From positions 1-64,000 of the forward strand of contig CADAND010000003.1 of assembly GCA_902789245.1 (NCBI GenBank): a stretch of 64,000 nt of DNA, read 5' to 3'. Positions within the stretch are counted from its first letter, which is position 1. The number at the start of each line of letters is the position of its first letter. The translations under genes and the position numbers were made by a program. Below, piece after piece: positions 1 through 48,771 of this stretch. The stretch comes from an uncultured Bacteroidia bacterium. Its GTDB lineage: Bacteria > Bacteroidota > Bacteroidia > Bacteroidales > UBA932. The notes below the pieces were generated by a model that was not told the DNA's origin, searched no databases, and worked only from the letters and a program-made list of their open reading frames with translations.

Positions 1-56
1 TCTCGCAGCATTTTTCCTTGGGCGCGCTGCGATACGCGATACACTTTGTAGTTCAT

Positions 57-39273: not shown

Positions 39274-40050
39274 CTACAGTCCGATATCGATTTTCAACTG
39301 GCGGATGGCCTTTTCGGCGTCGCCGCCGGCCTGGTCGAGCAGCGTCACGAAGCGGCTGCCGATGATGCCGCCGGAAGCGTGCTCGCAGGCAGCGTCGAAG
39401 GTCTGCTTGTTGCTGATACCGAAGCCGACCATCCGCGGGATGCGCAGTCCCATGTCCGCGATCCGCTTGAAATACGCTTGCTTCCGGGCGTCGAAGTCCC
39501 GCTGCGCGCCCGTCGTGGCGGCCGAGGAGACCATGTAGATGAAGCCGGAGGTGTGCTCGTCGATCAGGCGCACCCGCTCCTCGGAGGTCTCCGGGGTGAT
39601 CAGCATGATGAAGCGCAGCCCGTAGCGCTCGGTCACGGCCTTGTAGCTCTCCATGTAATCTTTGAATGGCAGGTCCGGGATGATGATGCCGTCCACGCCC
39701 ACTTCCGCGCAGCGGGCGCAGAACGCCTCGAAGCCGAAGCGGAACACGGGGTTGAGGTAGCCCATCAGGATGAGGGGGATGTCCACGTCGCGGCGGATGC
39801 CTTCGAGCTGCGAGAAGAGCTTCTCGAGGGTCATCCCGCCGCGGAGCGCCTTCGTGGCGGCGTCCTGGATCACCGGACCGTCGGCCATCGGATCGCTGAA
39901 GGGGATGCCGACCTCGATCATGTCCACGCCCTCGCGGGCGAGCGTACGGATCACGTCAGCGGTGCCGTCAGGACACGGCGCGCCGGCGCAGAAGTAAATG
40001 GAGAGCAGGCGCTGCGGCTTGCTGCTGAAGAGTTGGTCTATTCTGTTCAT
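39274..40050 (-). CDS. trpA: Tryptophan synthase alpha chain
   Basis: A 258-residue TIM-barrel enzyme that cleaves indole-3-glycerol phosphate and passes indole to TrpB. The catalytic pair Glu46 (MIEVGIPFSDP) and Asp57 (ADGPVIQ) is intact, and the phosphate-binding GFGISN is near residue 205. It is the last gene of the operon, 4 bp after trpF. Confidence 0.97.
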   Translation of the reverse strand: MNRIDQLFSSKPQRLLSIYFCAGAPCPDGTADVIRTLAREGVDMIEVGIPFSDPMADGPVIQDAATKALRGGMTLEKLFSQLEGIRRDVDIPLILMGYLNPVFRFGFEAFCARCAEVGVDGIIIPDLPFKDYMESYKAVTERYGLRFIMLITPETSEERVRLIDEHTSGFIYMVSSAATTGAQRDFDARKQAYFKRIADMGLRIPRMVGFGISNKQTFDAACEHASGGIIGSRFVTLLDQAGGDAEKAIRQLKIDIGL

Positions 40051-40054
40051 TGTC

Positions 40055-40678
40055 TTATCGTTGCAGGTTTTCTAAAAAGATTTCCATCAGTTCCGGGTCC
40101 TTGATGCCCGGGGCCGTCTCGAAGCGGCTGTTGAGGTCGATGCCCGCGAGGTACGGGTAGATGAAGTCGTGGAGCGTGGCCACGGTGTCCATCCCGATGC
40201 CCCCGCTGAGCAGGAAGCGCGTCTTCTCCTCATAGTCGTCCATGATGGACCAGTCGAAGCGCTTGCCGCTGCCGCCGTGGCCGGGGGTCTTGGTGTCGAA
40301 GAGGAAGAGGTCGCAGGTGCCTTCGTAGCCCGCGACGGTGTTGCGCACGCTTTCCTCGGCGATACCGAAGGCCTTGATGACGCGCAGCCCGTCGCGCTCG
40401 CGCAGCTGGGCGCAGAACTCCGGGCTCTCCGAGCCGTGGAGCTGGACGTAGTCGAAGCGGTAGGTCTCGTTGCGGCGCAGGATCTCCTCGCGCGGCGCGT
40501 CCACGAACACGCCCACGCGTCCCGCCTTGGCGGGGAGGTAGGAGGGCGTTTCGCGCACGTAGCGCGGGGAACCGGGGTAGAAGATGAACCCGATCAGGTC
40601 CACTCCCAGGGCTTCGATGGCGCGGATGTTCTCGCCCTCGGTCATGCCGCACACCTTGATGAGCTGGTTGTTGATCAT
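40055..40678 (-). CDS. trpF: Phosphoribosylanthranilate isomerase
   Basis: A 207-residue TIM barrel. KVCGMTEGENI carries the catalytic Cys10, and FLFDTKTPGHGGSGKRFDW carries the general-acid Asp and phosphate loop. LSGGI and GIDLNSRFE near the end are typical. It performs the Amadori rearrangement of PRA. The start overlaps the trpC stop by 4 bp. Confidence 0.96.
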   Translation of the reverse strand: MINNQLIKVCGMTEGENIRAIEALGVDLIGFIFYPGSPRYVRETPSYLPAKAGRVGVFVDAPREEILRRNETYRFDYVQLHGSESPEFCAQLRERDGLRVIKAFGIAEESVRNTVAGYEGTCDLFLFDTKTPGHGGSGKRFDWSIMDDYEEKTRFLLSGGIGMDTVATLHDFIYPYLAGIDLNSRFETAPGIKDPELMEIFLENLQR

Positions 40679-41484
40679 AGCGCCTGGATGAATGTGGCCA
40701 GGGCGGCGCCCGGGTCGGGTTCTTTCATGAAGGTTTCGCCCATCAGGAAGCCGCGGAAGCCGGCTTCGCGCAGCTGCCTGACGGTCTCCGGGTCGCTGAT
40801 TCCGCTCTCGGATATAAATACCCTCTTTTCCGCTCCGCTGTCCGTCCGCCGGAGGAGTGGGGCCAGGTCAAAGGAGGTCTGTACGTCCGTGACGAAGGAG
40901 CCGAGATGCCGGTTGTTCACCCCGACGACGTCGATGTCCGGGGTAATATAATCCAGCTCCTCCGCGCTGTGGATCTCCAGCAGCACCTCGAGCCCGAGCC
41001 GGTGCGCCTCGGCGGTGAGGGCGGCGCAGTCCTCGCGGCTCAGGCACGCGGCGATGAGCAGCACGGCGTCCGCGCCCGCCTCTGCCGCCTGGTAGAGCTG
41101 GACAGGGTCGATGATGAAGTCCTTCCGGAGAATGGGAATGTCCACCAGCGGCCGCACCCGGCGGATGAAGTCGAGGCTCCCGCCGAAATACTCCTCGTCG
41201 GTGAGGATGCTGAGCGCCGCGGCGCCGTTCGCCGCATACACCGGCACGACCTCCTCCGGCTGCACATCCGCATGGATCCAGCCTTTCGACGGCGACTTGC
41301 GCTTGAACTCCGCGATGATGCCGGTCTTCGACGCCGCCAGCGCCTGCTTCAGCGACCTTTTCCCAGTCGTTTTCAGCGTAGTGTCACGACAAACCACCGA
41401 TTTGTCGATTGCCGCCAGCTCCTGCCGCTTGGTTTTTATGATCTCCCCCAGAATGTCTGTGAGCTGTAAATCGTTATCTTTCAT
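40675..41484 (-). CDS. trpC: Indole-3-glycerol phosphate synthase
   Basis: A 269-residue TIM barrel. AEFKRKSPSKGWI, LRKDFIIDPVQLYQA and the Glu/Asn-rich VGVNNRHLG match TrpC. The start is set at 41484 (MKDNDLQLTD); an in-frame ATG at 41550 would add 22 residues that lie inside the 113-bp repeat and look non-coding. The first nine codons are themselves encoded by the left end of repeat copy B, so the element was inserted at, or evolved around, the start of this gene. The 87-bp gap after trpD breaks the otherwise tight spacing of the operon. Confidence 0.94.
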   Translation of the reverse strand: MKDNDLQLTDILGEIIKTKRQELAAIDKSVVCRDTTLKTTGKRSLKQALAASKTGIIAEFKRKSPSKGWIHADVQPEEVVPVYAANGAAALSILTDEEYFGGSLDFIRRVRPLVDIPILRKDFIIDPVQLYQAAEAGADAVLLIAACLSREDCAALTAEAHRLGLEVLLEIHSAEELDYITPDIDVVGVNNRHLGSFVTDVQTSFDLAPLLRRTDSGAEKRVFISESGISDPETVRQLREAGFRGFLMGETFMKEPDPGAALATFIQAL

Positions 41485-41569
41485 TACTTTATTATTTTGT
41501 ACTCCCCCAAAAAACGGGATAGTATAAAATGGTAAAAAATTATCTATCAATCACTTATAGCTCACAACG
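41457..41569. repeat. 113-bp dispersed palindromic element, copy B
   Basis: It starts CTGTGAGCTGTAA and ends TATAGCTCACAACG, like copy A at 2395-2507. The central block TACTCCCCCAAAAA is at the same offset (43 bases in), and the following CGGG..AGTATAA is partly kept. The core stem is much weaker than in copy A. It fills the trpD-trpC gap, ending 2 bp from the trpD stop, and reads into the first 28 bases of trpC. In the trp mRNA its ends (UGUGAGCUAUA and UACAGCUCACA) can pair, which would place the trpC start inside a folded domain. Confidence 0.7.
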
Positions 41570-41571
41570 AA

Positions 41572-42567
41572 TTACGAGTAGATCTCCAGGAAGCGGCGGA
41601 AGGCGGCGAGGGCGGCGCCGCTGTCCAGGGACTCGCGGCAGCGCGCGATCGACTCCTCCACCGAAAGGTTGCGGTCAATCACGGAAATGCCGCAGGCGGC
41701 GTTCGCCAGGACCACCGACTTCTGCGCCTCCGTGGCCGTGCCTTCGAGTATCGCATCGAAGATCCGGCGCGCGTCGTCGGCAGTCTGTCCGCCGTAGATG
41801 TCCTTGGGCTCCACGTAGTTGAGCCCCAGGTCCTTGGGCGTGAACACTTTCTCGAAGTGCGGGGTCACGAGCTTGAAGCCCGAAGTCAGCGAAATCTCGT
41901 CGTAGCCGTCGTAGCTGGTCAGCACGCCGAAGTTGTCGCCGATCTTCTGGTGGGCCCGGACGTAGAGCCGCTGCTGGGCCTGGGTGGCCGTGCCGTGCAG
42001 GGAGTTCTTCGGCTGGCAGGGATTGACCAGCGGGCCCAGCAGGTTGAAGCAGGTGGGCACGCCCAGCGCGCGGCGCACGGGACCCACGAACTTCATGCCG
42101 TAGGCGAAGAGCGGAGCGTGCAGGTAGCAGATACCGGCTTCGTCGAGTGCGCGACGCATCACGTCCGGATTGTCGGTGAACTTGGCTCCGTGGGCCTCCA
42201 GGACGGTGCTCGCGCCACTCACGGAGGTGCTCGCGCCGTTGCCGTGCTTGGACACCTTGTAGCCCGCGCCGGCGATCACGAACGCCGAACAGGTGGAGAT
42301 GTTGAAGGTGTTCTTGCTGTCTCCGCCGGTGCCTACGATGTCGAGGGTATTATAATCGTCGAGGTCGATGTGCTTGCCGGTCTCCAGCAGACCGTCGCGG
42401 AAGCCGAGGAGCTCGTCCACCGTGATGCCGCGCGTCTGGAGCGCCATCAGCAGCGCTGCGATCTGGCTGTCGTTGTAGGCCTGCCGGGTGATGCCGAGCA
42501 GGATGTCGTGCGTCTGTTCGCGGGAGAGGGTCTCTCCCTCGATGAGTTGGTTCAGATACTCTTTCAT
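41572..42567 (-). CDS. trpD: Anthranilate phosphoribosyltransferase
   Basis: A 331-residue enzyme. VGTGGDSKNTFNISTCSAFV is the PRPP-binding signature; KHGNGASTSVSGASTVLEAHG follows. It joins anthranilate to PRPP. It is a separate protein, not fused to TrpG, and lies 12 bp after trpG. Confidence 0.97.
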   Translation of the reverse strand: MKEYLNQLIEGETLSREQTHDILLGITRQAYNDSQIAALLMALQTRGITVDELLGFRDGLLETGKHIDLDDYNTLDIVGTGGDSKNTFNISTCSAFVIAGAGYKVSKHGNGASTSVSGASTVLEAHGAKFTDNPDVMRRALDEAGICYLHAPLFAYGMKFVGPVRRALGVPTCFNLLGPLVNPCQPKNSLHGTATQAQQRLYVRAHQKIGDNFGVLTSYDGYDEISLTSGFKLVTPHFEKVFTPKDLGLNYVEPKDIYGGQTADDARRIFDAILEGTATEAQKSVVLANAACGISVIDRNLSVEESIARCRESLDSGAALAAFRRFLEIYS

Positions 42568-42579
42568 ATTGTGTAATTT

Positions 42580-43143
<564 letters not shown>

Positions 43144-43148
43144 AAGGC

Positions 43149-44540
43149 TCAGAGTGTTGCGGCGATCTCAATGGCTTTGCGGAGCGCGCCGAGCTTGTTG
43201 TTGACTTCTTGGAGTTCGTAGGCGGGGTTGCTCTTGGCGACGATGCCGCCGCCGGCCTGGAACCAGAGTTCTCCGCCACGGCTCACGAAGGAGCGGATCG
43301 TGATGGCCTGGTTGAGCGAGCCGTCGAAGCCGATGCTCCCCACGCAGCCGCCGTAGGCGCCGCGGTTGTGGGGCTCCAGCTCCGAAATGATCTGCATCGC
43401 ACGGACCTTCGGCGCCCCGGAGAGCGTCCCGGCCGGGAAGGTGTCGATGAAGGTCTTGACGGGGTCGGCACCTGCGTCCGGTACGCCGCTCACGCGGCTG
43501 ACGAGGTGGATGACATGCGAGTAGTACTGCAGTTCCTTATAGAAATCGACGCGCACGTCGTGGCAGTTGCGCGAAAGGTCGTTGCGCGCCAGGTCCACCA
43601 GCATCACGTGCTCGGCATTCTCCTTGGGGTCATTGCGGAGGAATTCCGCCCCGCGTGCGTCGGCCGCGTCGTCGCCCGTGCGGCGCGTCGTGCCCGCGAT
43701 CGGGTCGATGTACGCCCGCCCGCCCTCGATGCGGCAGTGGGTCTCGGGCGAGGAGCCGAAGATGCGGTAGCCGCCGAAGTCCATGTAGAAGAGATACGGG
43801 GAAGGGTTGATGCTGCGCAGGGCGCGGTAGAGCTGGAAATCGTCGCCCTCGTAGCGCTGCACGAAGCGGCGCGACAGCACGACCTGGAAGACGTCGCCGC
43901 GGTGGCAGTGGGCGATGCCCCTGCGGATATTGGCCAGGTGCTCCTCGTCGGTCAGCGTCGAGCTGACCTCTCCCGTCGGGCGGAAGTCGTAGAGGTTGGT
44001 CGCGGCGCGGCCGAGCAGGCGCTCGATGCGTTCGCCTTCCGGTGCGCTGCCTTCTGGCACCAACTCGTGCAGGGTCAGGCGGTTGCGGAAGTGGTCGAAC
44101 TCCAGCGTGAAGCGGAACAGGACGTACAGCAGATCCGGGGCGTCGTGCTCCGCGTGGGTCTCATCCTTGACCGCGATGTCCTCGAAATAGCGGACGGCGT
44201 TGAACGTGGTGAATCCCCAGAGTGAAACATTTTTGTTACTTAAGTGGAACGCCCCCATGAATTCGCGAACAAGTTGGTCTGCGGTGTAGTCCGCCGAGAG
44301 GCTCTTCTCGATGCGCCCCCCGTCCGGGAGGGCCTGGAAGCCGATTCCGTGGGCGACACCCACTTCGGCGAGCGGCTCCAGCGCGATGAACGAGCGCGCT
44401 TCCCGGCCGGCGTGATAATCGCTGCTCTCCATCAGGATGGAGCGCGAAGAAGCGTCCCGCAGGCGGAGATAAGCGGAGACGGGCGTATGCAGATCGCCGG
44501 GCAGCTCCCGGCTGACGAGGCTATAACAGAATTGTTTCAT
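43149..44540 (-). CDS. trpE: Anthranilate synthase component I
   Basis: A 463-residue chorismate-binding enzyme. An [10 protein letters not shown] segment near residue 37 corresponds to the LLES motif that binds feedback-inhibitor tryptophan, so enzyme-level inhibition is likely retained. The C-terminal catalytic region has [30 protein letters not shown] and [11 protein letters not shown]. It overlaps the trpB stop by 4 bp. Confidence 0.96.
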
Positions 44541-45721
44541 CTCTTGATATAGTTGAGGTAAGTCTCAATGTCCTTGTCGCCCCGTCCGGAGACGGTCAGT
44601 ACGACGACATCTTCCGGCCGGAAATCCATCTTGCCCAGCGCCGCCAGGGCGTGGGCGCTTTCGAGCGCCGGGATGATGCCCTCGAGGCGCGTGAGTTCGA
44701 AGGCGGCGGCGACGGCCTCGTCGTCATTGATCGGGATCACGCGGGCGCGCCCCTGCGCTGCCAGGTTGGCGTGCATCGGGCCGATGCCCGGGTAGTCCAG
44801 CCCGGCGCTGATGGAGTAGGGCTCCTCGATCTGCCCGTCCGGGCTCTGGATCACGTAGCTCTTGGCGCCGTGCAGGATGCCCACCTGCCCGAGGGCGATG
44901 GTGGCGGCCGTCTTGCCGCTGTCGATCCCGAGTCCGCCCGCTTCCGCGAGCACGATCTTCACGCGCGTGTCATCTATATAATGGTAGATGGTGCCGCCGG
45001 CATTGGAGCCGCCGCCCACGCAGGCCATCAGGTAGTCGGGGTAATCGCGGCCCACGTGCTCCTGCAACTGGCCCTTGATCTCTTCGCTGATCACGGACTG
45101 CAGGCGCGCCACCATGTCTGGATAGGGGTGCGGACCGACGGTGGAGCCGATGATGTAGAACGTGTCGGAGGGGTGGCAGCACCAGTCGCGGATGGCCTCG
45201 TTGGTGGCGTCCTTGAGCGTCTTGTTGCCGGAGGTTACGGGGACCACCGTGGCGCCAAGCATCTTCATCTTCTCGACGTTGACCCGCTGGCGCTTCACGT
45301 CTGTCTCGCCCATGTAGACCACGCATTCCATGTTCATCAGCGCGCACACCGTGGCCGTGGCCACACCGTGCTGGCCGGCGCCCGTCTCGGCGATGATGCG
45401 GCGCTTGCCCATCTGCCGGGCCACGAGAATCTGCCCCACGGTGTTGTTGATCTTGTGGGCACCGGTGTGGTTGAGGTCTTCCCGCTTGAGATAGATCTGC
45501 GCGCCGTAGCGCTCGGAGAGCCGCCGGGCGAGGTAGAGCGGACTCGGACGTCCGACGTAGTCGCGCAGCAGTGCGCGGAACTCCCGCTGGAACGACTCGC
45601 TTTCGAGGATGGGGAGGTAGGCCTCCTGCAGGTCGGAGACGCACTGGTGGAGAATCTCCGGGACGTAGGCGCCGCCGAACTCACCGTAATAACCTTCTGA
45701 ATCTACTAAATAACTTTTCAT
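44537..45721 (-). CDS. trpB: Tryptophan synthase beta chain
   Basis: A 394-residue PLP enzyme. Lys90 in HTGAHKINN forms the internal aldimine; [22 protein letters not shown] and the PLP phosphate loop [10 protein letters not shown] are present. It condenses indole with serine. It heads the operon (order trpBEGDCFA), as in many Bacteroidetes. The start is about 26 bases after a terminator-type hairpin in the leader, which should control the whole operon. Confidence 0.97.
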
Positions 45722-45746
45722 ATCTTTTTGTTTGTCTATTATCCGG

Positions 45747-45784
45747 AAAAGGGCCCTGTCGCATCGCGGCAGGGCCCTTTTTTA
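45747..45784 (-). terminator. trp attenuator hairpin
   Basis: Read on the minus strand, AAAAGGGCCCTG and CAGGGCCCTTTT form a GC-rich stem extended inward by CGC/GCG around a 3-4 base loop, ending in UUUU. It lies between the trpL stop and trpB, where an attenuator is expected. The opposite strand ends in six T, so it would also stop plus-strand transcripts. I could not identify an unambiguous antiterminator. Confidence 0.75.
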
Positions 45785-45823
45785 TATCTCTTTGCTTAGA
45801 TACACATACGGAGCGTCAACCTC

Positions 45824-45883
45824 TTACGACTTCTGGAGTTGTAACAGGCGCCACCACCAATATGCGTTCATGCGGTAATTCAT
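45824..45883 (-). CDS. trpL: trp operon leader peptide with three tandem Trp codons
   Basis: A 19-codon ORF, MNYRMNAYWWWRLLQLQKS, with UGG UGG UGG at 45859-45851. Its ATG is exactly 7 nt after the -7 box, so the mRNA is near leaderless. About 40 bases after its stop comes a GC-rich terminator hairpin, then trpB. Three consecutive Trp codons in a 19-codon frame directly upstream of the Trp genes are very unlikely by chance. Ribosome stalling when Trp-tRNA is scarce would be expected to prevent termination. An alternative hairpin (CAACUC with GAGGUUG, one bulge) overlaps the end of the ORF. Confidence 0.85.
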   Translation of the reverse strand: MNYRMNAYWWWRLLQLQKS

Positions 45884-45890
45884 ACGACTA

Positions 45891-45921
45891 CAAAGGTAGA
45901 AAACAGATGGAGAAATCCAAA
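45891..45921 (-). promoter_or_regulatory. trp operon promoter
   Basis: Minus-strand TTTG (45921-45918), a 19-bp spacer and TACCTTTG (45898-45891): one of the best matches to the Bacteroidetes consensus in the window. Transcription starts within a few bases of the trpL ATG. It is back-to-back with the S9 peptidase promoter. Confidence 0.8.
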
Positions 45922-45969: not shown

Positions 45970-48771
45970 ATGAAACGTCTTTCATTTATCCTTTTTTTCG
46001 TCGCAGTTATGGCTTCCGGCTCCCTCTGGGCCCAGAAGCCGCTCGACCACGATGCCTATGACGGATGGCAGTCCGTCCGCAATGTCAAACTCACCCCCGA
46101 CGGCAAGCTGCTCAGCTACGAGGTCGCGCCCCAAGAGGGCGATTGCACGCTCTACGTGCGCAACCTCACCACGGGCGCGGAGATCTCCGTGCCGCGCGGC
46201 ACGGCCCTGAAGTGGACGGGCGATGTGGCTGTCTTCACGGTCAAGGCACGCTTCGCCGACACGCGCCAGGCCAAGATCGACAAGAAGAAGGCCGACGAGC
46301 AGCCCAAGGACAGCCTCGCGCGCCTGGACCTGCGCACGCTGGAATGGAAGATGATCGGCGCCTCGGGCGCCACGGCCATGGGCTCCGACGCGGCGCCGTA
46401 TCTCTTCGCCGCCCAGGAGGTCAAGGGCCGCAAGTCCAAGAATCTGCTCTGCATCACCGTGGCCACGGGCGCCGTGGACACGCTGAAGAACGTGTCCGCC
46501 TTCGAGACCTCCGCCTCCGGCGACCGGCTGCTCGTCGTGACCGCCAAAGAAGAGAAGGATTCCCTGTCGCGCAGCGCCGTGATCCTCTATGACCTCACGA
46601 AGGGGAGCATTGACACGCTGTCCAGTGGCCGCAAGGCCTATGCGGGCGGCCGCTTCAGCGCCGCCGGCGACCGGGTGCTTTTCGCCGCCACGGACGAGGA
46701 GGAGAAGGAAGACGGCACGCCCGCATATGCGCTCTACCTCGCGCAGGAGCGCGTCCTGCAGAAGGCCACGCGCCGTACGCCTGCGGTGACGGACTGGACC
46801 TGCTGCGAACTGCTGCCCGCCGATGCCGCCGCCCTCCCGGAGGGCTGGATCGTCGGTTCCGGTGCGGGCGCAGCTTTCTCGAACGCCAATTCCCGGGTTG
46901 TCCTGCGCCTGCAGGAGAAATTCCCGCCCAAGGATACCACTGTCTATGACTTCGAGGCCGCCCAGCTCGACATCTGGGTCTGGGACAAGAAGACCGTGCC
47001 GCCGATGGACAAAGTCTCGCGCACGGGCGACCGCCGCACGGCGGTCGTGAACCTGGACCGACCGGGCGAGCTGCTGGTCCTGTCCGGCAGCGCCTCCGAC
47101 CGCATTACCTTCTTTGACGGCGCCGAGGGCGGCTATGCGCTCTCGACCGACACGCAGCCCTACGACGTGGACAACTACTGGGCGGCGGACAGCCGCGCGG
47201 ACGTCGCGCTCGTGAGCCTGCTCGACGGCAGCCGCCGCACGCTCCGCGAGGGCGCGCAGGGTTACGCGATCCCTTCGCCGTACGGCAAATATATCGCCTG
47301 GTTCAACCCGGAGGACGGCCAGTGGTACTGCCAGGACCTGGCTACGGACACGCTGGTCAACCTGACCGAAAATACGGGCGTGAACTTCTGGGACGAGGAG
47401 GACGACCACCCGCTTCCGGGCTACACGCCCATCGGCCGTCCGGTCTGGGCGGGCGCCGACGAGGCCCTGCTCCTGACCGACCGCTACGACGTGTGGCGTT
47501 TCAGCCCCGACGGCAAGAAGGCCGAGTGCCTGACGCGCGGGGCGGGCCGCCGCGACCGCGTGCAGTACCGCCCTGTGCAGTGGGGCTTGCATGACAATCC
47601 CTACCTCTACCAGAACATCCACAACTATCCCGTCAAGGGCACGCTCCGCCTCTCATCCTTCAACGAAGTGGACAAGCGCAACGGCTTCGCCACCGTGGAC
47701 ATCGCCAAGGGCGGCGAGCCGCGCGGCTTCCTGGCGGAGAAGACCTTCTCGAACGTGACGAAGGCGGAGAAGGCCGATGTGGTCGCCTTCCTGAAGGGCG
47801 ACTTCCGCCACCCGAACGACCTCTACCTCACGCGCGACTGGTGGGGCTCCGAATCCAAGCTGACCGCCATCAACCCCCAGCAGGCGGACTACCGCTGGGG
47901 CGACGTGCAGCTGGTCCACTGGCAGGCTTACGACGGCACGCCGCTCGACGGCCTGCTCTTCACCCCGGACGGCTATGACCCGCAAGGCAGCTATCCGCTG
48001 ATGATCTACTTCTACGAGAAGTACTCCGAGACGCTCTACAACTACCGGGCACCGGCCCCGAGCCGCTCCACGGTCAATATCCCCTTCTTCGTGAGCCGCG
48101 GTTACGTGGTCTTCATCCCGGATATCGTCTACGTGGACGGACACCCGGGGGAGAGCGCCTACAACTGCATCTGTGCCGGCGCGGAGGCGATGTGCGCGCA
48201 GTTCCCCTTCATCGACAGGAAACGCATGGCCATCCAGGGCCAGAGCTGGGGCGGCTACCAGACCGCCTACCTCGTCACGCGCACCGACATGTTCGCGGCG
48301 GCGGGCGCCGGCGCTCCGGTGGGCAACATGACCAGCGCCTACGGCGGCATCCGCTGGGAGTCCGGCAACAGCCGCATCCCGCAGTATGAGTTCGGCCAGA
48401 GCCGCGTCGGTAAGACGATCTGGGAGGAGGGCGGCCTGGATCTCTATCTTGAGAATTCTCCGGTCTTCCACGCTCCCAACGTCAAGACGCCGGTACTCAT
48501 CATGCACAACGACAACGACGGCGCCGTGCCCTGGTACCAGGGCATCGAGTTCTTCATGAGCCTGCGCCGCCTGGGCAAGCCCGCCTGGCTGCTGGAGTAC
48601 AACAACGAGGCGCACAACCTCTCCGAGCGCCGCAACGCCAAGGATCTGTCGGTCCGTCTGTCGCAGTTCTTCGACCACTACCTCCTCGGCGCCCCCGAGC
48701 CCGTCTGGATGCAATCCGGCATCCCGCATGCCCGCAAGGGGAATTACTTCGCGACGGAACTGACCAAATAG
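45970..48771 (+). CDS. Secreted S9-family prolyl oligopeptidase-like peptidase
   Basis: A 933-residue protein with a signal peptide (ends SLWAQ, residue 19). An N-terminal beta-propeller-like region (to about 640) precedes the alpha/beta hydrolase domain. The triad is Ser759 (GQSWGGYQ), Asp850 (NDNDGAVPW) and His882 (EAHNLS). It should cleave peptides in the periplasm; the exact specificity is not visible. The start at 45970 was chosen for the signal peptide, as the frame runs 399 bp further upstream through the trp leader by chance. Confidence 0.92.
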   Translation: MKRLSFILFFVAVMASGSLWAQKPLDHDAYDGWQSVRNVKLTPDGKLLSYEVAPQEGDCTLYVRNLTTGAEISVPRGTALKWTGDVAVFTVKARFADTRQAKIDKKKADEQPKDSLARLDLRTLEWKMIGASGATAMGSDAAPYLFAAQEVKGRKSKNLLCITVATGAVDTLKNVSAFETSASGDRLLVVTAKEEKDSLSRSAVILYDLTKGSIDTLSSGRKAYAGGRFSAAGDRVLFAATDEEEKEDGTPAYALYLAQERVLQKATRRTPAVTDWTCCELLPADAAALPEGWIVGSGAGAAFSNANSRVVLRLQEKFPPKDTTVYDFEAAQLDIWVWDKKTVPPMDKVSRTGDRRTAVVNLDRPGELLVLSGSASDRITFFDGAEGGYALSTDTQPYDVDNYWAADSRADVALVSLLDGSRRTLREGAQGYAIPSPYGKYIAWFNPEDGQWYCQDLATDTLVNLTENTGVNFWDEEDDHPLPGYTPIGRPVWAGADEALLLTDRYDVWRFSPDGKKAECLTRGAGRRDRVQYRPVQWGLHDNPYLYQNIHNYPVKGTLRLSSFNEVDKRNGFATVDIAKGGEPRGFLAEKTFSNVTKAEKADVVAFLKGDFRHPNDLYLTRDWWGSESKLTAINPQQADYRWGDVQLVHWQAYDGTPLDGLLFTPDGYDPQGSYPLMIYFYEKYSETLYNYRAPAPSRSTVNIPFFVSRGYVVFIPDIVYVDGHPGESAYNCICAGAEAMCAQFPFIDRKRMAIQGQSWGGYQTAYLVTRTDMFAAAGAGAPVGNMTSAYGGIRWESGNSRIPQYEFGQSRVGKTIWEEGGLDLYLENSPVFHAPNVKTPVLIMHNDNDGAVPWYQGIEFFMSLRRLGKPAWLLEYNNEAHNLSERRNAKDLSVRLSQFFDHYLLGAPEPVWMQSGIPHARKGNYFATELTK

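Follow-up and report, generated by a model that had tools for sequence, protein, structure and literature searches.

The window, the whole stretch of 64,000 nucleotides analysed here, carries on its minus strand a tryptophan operon in the gene order trpB-E-G-D-C-F-A, whose TrpB has its kin in the Bacteroidota. NCBIfam equivalog-type cut-offs were passed by TrpB, TrpD, TrpC and TrpA, and a subfamily cut-off by TrpG; TrpE and TrpF gave strong NCBIfam matches, yet under the curated cut-offs. The DNA ahead of the operon, read along the minus strand, consists of TTTG, 19 nt, TACCTTTG, 7 nt, an ATG that opens a 19-codon ORF, a hairpin, and 25 nt leading to trpB. A promoter, a 19-codon ORF with three UGG codons, a GC-rich hairpin and trpB, the parts named in the sequence-only reading, were all confirmed in the minus-strand sequence. 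The features are as follows.

39274..44540, minus strand: trpE-trpG-trpD-trpC-trpF-trpA, the remainder of the operon (NCBIfam matches)
44537..45721, minus strand: trpB, first gene of the operon, with its start codon at 45721 (TIGR00263, 566.8 bits against a cut-off of 392.45)
45747..45781, minus strand: terminator hairpin, GC-rich with one C/A mismatch, followed by UUUU and then CCGG (from sequence and comparison)
45758..45763, minus strand: UGCGAC, at the loop edge and the top of the terminator 3′ arm, putative 3′ side of the antiterminator
45803..45866, minus strand: outer stem P1, CGCAUAUUGG with CCGUAUGUG, enclosing the Trp codons and P2 (from the window fold and the RF01692 consensus structure)
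45823..45830, minus strand: region 2, GUCGUAAG, which overlaps the stop codon of the leader ORF and would supply the 5′ side of the antiterminator
45824..45844, minus strand: hairpin P2, in which region 1 UUACAACU pairs with region 2 AGUCGUAA and so masks it
45824..45883, minus strand: leader ORF, MNYRMNAYWWWRLLQLQKS*, 19 codons, with a second in-frame ATG at 45871
45851..45859, minus strand: three tandem UGG (Trp) codons, TGGTGGTGG, conserved in many loci of the order
45898-45891 and 45921-45918, minus strand: promoter of the Bacteroidota sigma-A type, with TACCTTTG as the -7 box and TTTG as the -33 element

On the plus strand, a divergent gene (45970-48771) weakly resembled peptidases in NCBIfam, its matches to lasso peptide isopeptidase and to Dpp5 both falling below cut-off. 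The consensus terminator scan reported the hairpin on the plus strand only and none on the minus strand, where the T run is too short for it (TTTT). At 45745-45783 the plus-strand T tract, TTTTTT followed by ATATCTCTTT, is better than the minus-strand TTTT followed by CCGG, so the hairpin could also serve as a stop for antisense transcription.

The leader is a short ORF with tandem codons for the amino acid made by the regulated genes (WWW, 45859-45851), and this arrangement was conserved among relatives. The WWW motif by itself is weak evidence for a leader, since 3 of the 637 ATG-started frames of 8–40 amino acids in the window contained it (nested starts counted separately); these three frames represent two sites, one being the leader itself with both of its ATGs. 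Elsewhere in the genome, a search for a histidine leader by a run of five His codons gave four hits, two of which overlap, and none of them lay within a short frame of the leader type.

At gathering thresholds, no Rfam family matched at the leader. A relaxed Rfam search on 401 bases returned 18 hits, of which Bacteroid-trp (RF01692) was the best with 42.9 bits (E 6.9e-4; E 9.1e-4 in its own genome), below the family's gathering cut-off of 49 bits, and the remaining 17 had E ≥ 0.24. The Rfam Trp_leader family matched the window neither at gathering thresholds nor among these 18 relaxed hits. Model positions 1-131 of RF01692, including P1 and P2, were aligned over their full length, a few pairs being non-standard. 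The RF01692 cut-off was passed by 8 of 20 loci from relatives, including L002 and L003 of the same family. Whole-genome searches matched RF01692 in at least 38 of 393 genomes of the order (at least 21 above cut-off) and in at least 42 of 395 genomes of the phylum (at least 37 above cut-off), these counts being lower bounds because strict filters were used. The window leader resembles Bacteroid-trp in its tandem Trp codons, in P1 and P2, and in its position ahead of Bacteroidota tryptophan genes (family as outlined in PMC2864571), trpB being next to it; it differs in scoring below the cut-off and in the promoter, which lies much nearer the start codon in the window's clade.

Comparison with relatives, the check proposed together with the sequence-only reading, revealed that many loci of the order carry the Trp codons, the peptide tail and the hairpin in front of trpB or trpE, with compensatory changes in P2 and the terminator. 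A first set of 110 loci, window included, was gathered by TrpB similarity, and a leader frame with WW preceded trpB in 47 of them, 45 of which also had a terminator by rule. Such a leader was missing ahead of trpB in the other 63 loci, and 16 of these were re-inspected. Four had degenerate leaders (L019, L034, L041 and L047), in which YWRWR, CLWR or YWRR replaced WWW and which form a series with fewer Trp codons, the usual peptide tail being retained in L034, L041 and L047. Three others (L108, L109 and L098) had little upstream DNA, and nine showed no clear leader. A first scan had placed relatives outside Bacteroidales among those without a leader; this was rejected, as eight further loci of the same class, drawn from the phylum-wide search, carry the leader ahead of trpE. 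Ten of 127 automatically picked leaders were discarded by eye as mispicked ahead of the alignment (L010, L061, L068, L075, L082, L086, L091, L095, L106 and L187), and the remaining 117 were thinned by similarity to a diverse set of 60. Many leader peptides share the tail R-LQL--S and finish in S*, since region 2 reads as the codons UCG UAA.

Within the same genus, 37 of 40 loci (window included) had a W leader, and none was seen in L156, L164 and L175. The TrpB of L164 was only 46% identical. In L156 and L175, trpB was 85–87% identical and no Trp leader was found within 500 nt upstream; attenuation may have been lost there, or the leader may not precede trpB. TrpB itself was detected at E ≤ 1e-100 in 44 of 400 same-genus genomes, four of these being only 47–48% identical, and in the TrpB tree the same-genus sequences of L161, L162 and L180 clustered with other families. 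The patchy operon and this tree placement suggest multiple gains, losses or transfers within the genus.

The recurrence across the order bears on the possibility that the hairpin is an ordinary terminator, that the WWW frame is a chance occurrence or encodes a small protein, and that the operon is regulated otherwise. The presence of WWW in a short frame elsewhere in the window leaves some room for this reading; against it stand the recurrence itself, the position of the best-scoring 38 RF01692 loci (L111-L148), 37 of which lay ahead of trpB or trpE and one of which was cut by a contig end, and the three-way covariation described below, which opposes a chance WWW frame. We regard this alternative as extremely improbable.

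Covariation in the 60 diverse leaders supported P2 and the terminator. P2 had 89.8% of cells paired and 37 double-changed cells, neither value being reached in any of 500 shuffles; the terminator had 97.6% of cells paired, and all 11 of its 11 pairs included double changes. An alternative hairpin formed by CAACUC and GAGGUUG at the end of the ORF, mentioned in the sequence-only reading, was not borne out, both motifs occurring together in 1 of 60 leaders, and P2 is the conserved hairpin. One terminator pair near the apex was broken in 12 of 60 leaders, including the window (C/A) and several relatives, and its 3′ base still paired with region 2 in 58 of 60 leaders, a pattern as expected if this base were kept for the antiterminator.

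Sequence comparison points to an antiterminator in which GUCGUAAG pairs with the terminator loop and upper 3′ arm. The sequence-only reading had instead offered GGCGCCUG, just past the Trp codons, and this segment is indeed partly complementary to the window's terminator arms; however, GGCGCC lay within 25 nt of the first Trp codon in just 12 of 60 diverse leaders and would be masked by a ribosome stalled on Trp under the conventional footprint, so that GGCGCCUG is not the conserved antiterminator and is very improbable as the one used here. For region 2, the best duplex that the sequence following the Trp codons can form with the terminator apex was computed in 44 non-redundant leaders, their relatedness kept in (left out of the count were L036 and L053, which lack TTTT, L049, a duplicate, and L075, a manual exclusion; for L027 the final candidate was used). 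Cognate duplexes averaged -12.58 kcal/mol versus -10.94 kcal/mol for non-cognate ones and -7.95 kcal/mol for shuffled letters, and 0 of 10000 permutations were as low as the cognate mean. The proposed helix had 90.0% of cells paired in the 60 leaders, versus 22–55% for slid versions, and 34 double-changed cells versus 6.7 in shuffles. Two of five measures were unremarkable, 80 of 500 shuffles being as high for the number of double-change pairs and 454 of 500 for pair types.

Most of these double changes (24 of the 34 cells) fell in one pair, formed by the second base of the stop codon and a base of the terminator loop. The combination of this stop-region base (middle letter of UAA or UGA) with the loop base was G-C in 26 leaders, A-U in 24, G-U in 6, other in 3 and gapped in 1; with region 1 in P2 the same base gave U-A in 24, C-G in 19, U-G in 16 and other in 1. 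All 24 rows with A at this stop-codon base (column 56 of A1) had U at the P2 partner and U at the loop partner, and 26 of the 36 rows with G had C in the terminator loop. One base of the stop codon therefore covaries with both of its alternative partners, a three-way covariation. The terminator and the proposed antiterminator are mutually exclusive and each is accompanied by covariation, that of the antiterminator coming mostly from this one pair. The window's own antiterminator would be among the weaker ones, with a 6-bp core and -8.9 kcal/mol, and its region 2 paired better with 35 of the 43 other terminators. The antiterminator of L037 still has eight pairs, built from quite different letters.

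No switch was revealed when complete leaders were folded by themselves, as the intact terminator prevails; it took truncated transcripts with the ribosome-covered bases masked to bring it out. Transcripts ending at the top of the terminator 3′ arm were folded with ribosome-covered bases held single-stranded, the footprint being set by convention at 15 nt upstream of the A-site codon and 13 from its first base. The antiterminator exceeded a probability of 0.5 in 52 of 60 leaders with a ribosome on the second Trp codon, in 5 with no ribosome and in 1 with the ribosome at the stop codon (L037, whose apex is misaligned in A1, was scored as a failure). With four further bases of the 3′ arm these numbers were 32, 0 and 0 of 60, so in this model the choice must come early. 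The window gave 0.97, 0.00 and 0.00 for the stalled, ribosome-free and stop states, and 0.59, 0.00 and 0.00 four bases later, when the stalled state had the terminator at 0.36 against the antiterminator at 0.59. Shuffling the letters of region 2 raised the stalled-state terminator in 60 of 60 leaders, from a mean of 0.07 to 0.64. The folding thus switches, in silico, with a ribosome on the regulatory codons.

When the ribosome was moved codon by codon along the window leader, the antiterminator had a probability of 0.00–0.06 before the Trp codons (0.01 just before), 0.90, 0.91 and 0.96 on the three Trp codons, 0.96–0.97 on the next three, then 0.21 and finally 0, with 0.00 near the stop codon. 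The mean of 59 leaders had a softer edge, with 0.41 one codon before the Trp codons and 0.70–0.81 on them. Effective stall positions extended past the third Trp codon by two codons in this mean and by three in the window, so that the RNA alone cannot single out Trp.

The conserved Trp codons and hairpin, the covarying pairs and the ribosome-constrained folds all favor the ribosome-mediated trp attenuation proposed in the sequence-only reading, and we put at about 0.88 the probability that the window leader attenuates transcription of the trp operon as a leader of the Bacteroid-trp (RF01692) kind. With ample charged tRNA-Trp, the ribosome would reach the stop codon and occupy region 2, so that the terminator would form and trpB would not be reached. 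With no ribosome on the leader, P1 and P2 would hide region 2 and the terminator would again form. When Trp is short, stalling at UGG UGG UGG would open P1 and P2 and free region 2 to pair with the terminator loop and upper 3′ arm, and RNA polymerase would therefore read on into the operon.

A similar logic operates in the trp attenuator of E. coli, where the antiterminator pairs with the terminator 5′ arm. The two systems share tandem Trp codons, mutually exclusive hairpins and the freeing of region 2 by stalling, which is predicted for the window; they differ in that the window's antiterminator would take the terminator loop and upper 3′ arm, and in the Bacteroidota promoter. Because the Rfam model ends at the terminator 5′ arm, the terminator 3′ arm and the antiterminator lie outside RF01692.

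The pattern TTTG-18..21-TAnnTTTG, to which the promoter conforms, occurred 5 times in the window versus 0.13 expected, and the exact TAnnTTTG box was present in 28 of 40 same-genus loci. The leader ATG at 45883 lies 7 nt 3′ of the -7 box. As this box occupies -12 to -5 in Flavobacterium psychrophilum (promoter data in PMC9723704), a leader 5′ UTR of 3 nt is predicted here, and transcription would start about 3 nt 5′ of the leader AUG. The most frequent 5′ UTR length given for Bacteroides thetaiotaomicron is 23 nt, with ~3.7% under 10 nt (transcript map in PMC7366714), and leaderless mRNAs made up 5.5% of those examined in F. psychrophilum (PMC9723704, transcriptome section). The literature search turned up no account of a leaderless attenuator in Bacteroidetes.

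The short spacing was kept in the nearest relatives, which supports, by inference, the predicted near-leaderless start put forward in the sequence-only reading; the absence of a Shine-Dalgarno step, mentioned there, is not special to this leader. Among the 28 same-genus loci with a W leader and the exact box, the first ATG lay 6–8 nt past the box in 18, all belonging to the 20 loci with TrpB identity ≥ 85.7%; the remaining two of these 20 had 11 and 14 nt, and the 8 more distant loci had 18–25 nt. Under a stricter rule (earliest ATG no more than 12 codons from Trp, TrpB nearly complete, loci without the exact box excluded), short spacing was found in 17 of 23 same-genus loci versus 4 of 62 others (L026, L028, L029 and L039), some of the box-to-ATG distances of 38–67 nt under this rule probably reflecting the choice of a wrong box. 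The window falls, in the TrpB tree, into a group of 17 rows (support 98) made up of 14 with short spacing, the two exceptions with 11 and 14 nt, and one without a box, and a wider group of 26 rows (support 99) added three short, two long (22 and 50 nt) and four without a box. Short spacing also appeared separately in L026/L028/L029 and in L039, and the box-to-ATG spacing changed state 6 times on the tree, rows with ≥ 45 nt being left uncounted.

The same attenuator might instead be translated from the internal ATG at 45871 (MNAYWWW...), behind a 5′ UTR of ordinary length (~15 nt), and would then not be nearly leaderless. This second ATG is 19 nt past the box, near the spacing in many other genera. 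However, 11 of the 18 same-genus loci with short spacing have no in-frame ATG beyond 11 nt (7 have one), and starting there would leave 4 codons before the first Trp, compared with mostly 6–10 in frames elsewhere, counting ATG starts only. Translation from the internal ATG is thus unlikely. Initiation at 45883 on a nearly leaderless RNA remains our preferred reading, and it seems probable that in one Bacteroidota lineage the promoter lies right up against the leader start codon, with ribosomes loading on an almost leaderless RNA, whereas most other examined leaders have a predicted 5′ UTR of ~15–28 nt; the family as a whole would use an antiterminator that takes the terminator loop and upper 3′ arm, a geometry outside the Rfam model.

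A leaderless trp leader has a precedent in Sinorhizobium meliloti, as the trp leader RNA there starts at the trpL ATG (rnTrpL, as described in parts of PMC7298713). The likeness lies in a leaderless trp leader ORF that serves attenuation; the same account places the S. meliloti leader in an Alphaproteobacterium, ahead of trpE(G), with RNA beginning at the ATG, while ~3 nt is predicted for the window.

Attenuators in Bacteroidetes were reportedly predicted by Vitreschak and colleagues in 2004. Bacteroid-trp appears in Table 1 of Weinberg et al. (2010), where it is marked as an RNA (y), cis-regulatory (y) and not a switch (n), in Bacteroidetes (PMC2864571). The 2021 transcriptome of F. psychrophilum provides strong clues to leader-peptide attenuation ahead of amino-acid operons (relevant passages of PMC9723704), and in B. 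thetaiotaomicron short ORFs in long 5′ UTRs resemble such leaders (from the map in PMC7366714). Papers on a trp leader in Bacteroides did not come up in our literature search on the subject. Nevertheless, trp attenuation is not a novelty for Bacteroidales, as the sequence-only reading had implied, RF01692 having been in print since 2010 and the F. psychrophilum clues being available. The window leader is ordinary in kind, well supported as an attenuator and of a type already known in the phylum; the present analysis adds an antiterminator defined by comparison and backed by three-way covariation, together with a clade whose leader ORF is predicted to be nearly leaderless.

These results turn a catalogued RNA family, thinly described in the literature searched, into a concrete and testable switch with a named antiterminator, and show that the Rfam cut-off misses divergent members of RF01692. 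The leaders with and without a predicted 5′ UTR form a natural series that may serve as a test of what attenuation requires of ribosome loading.
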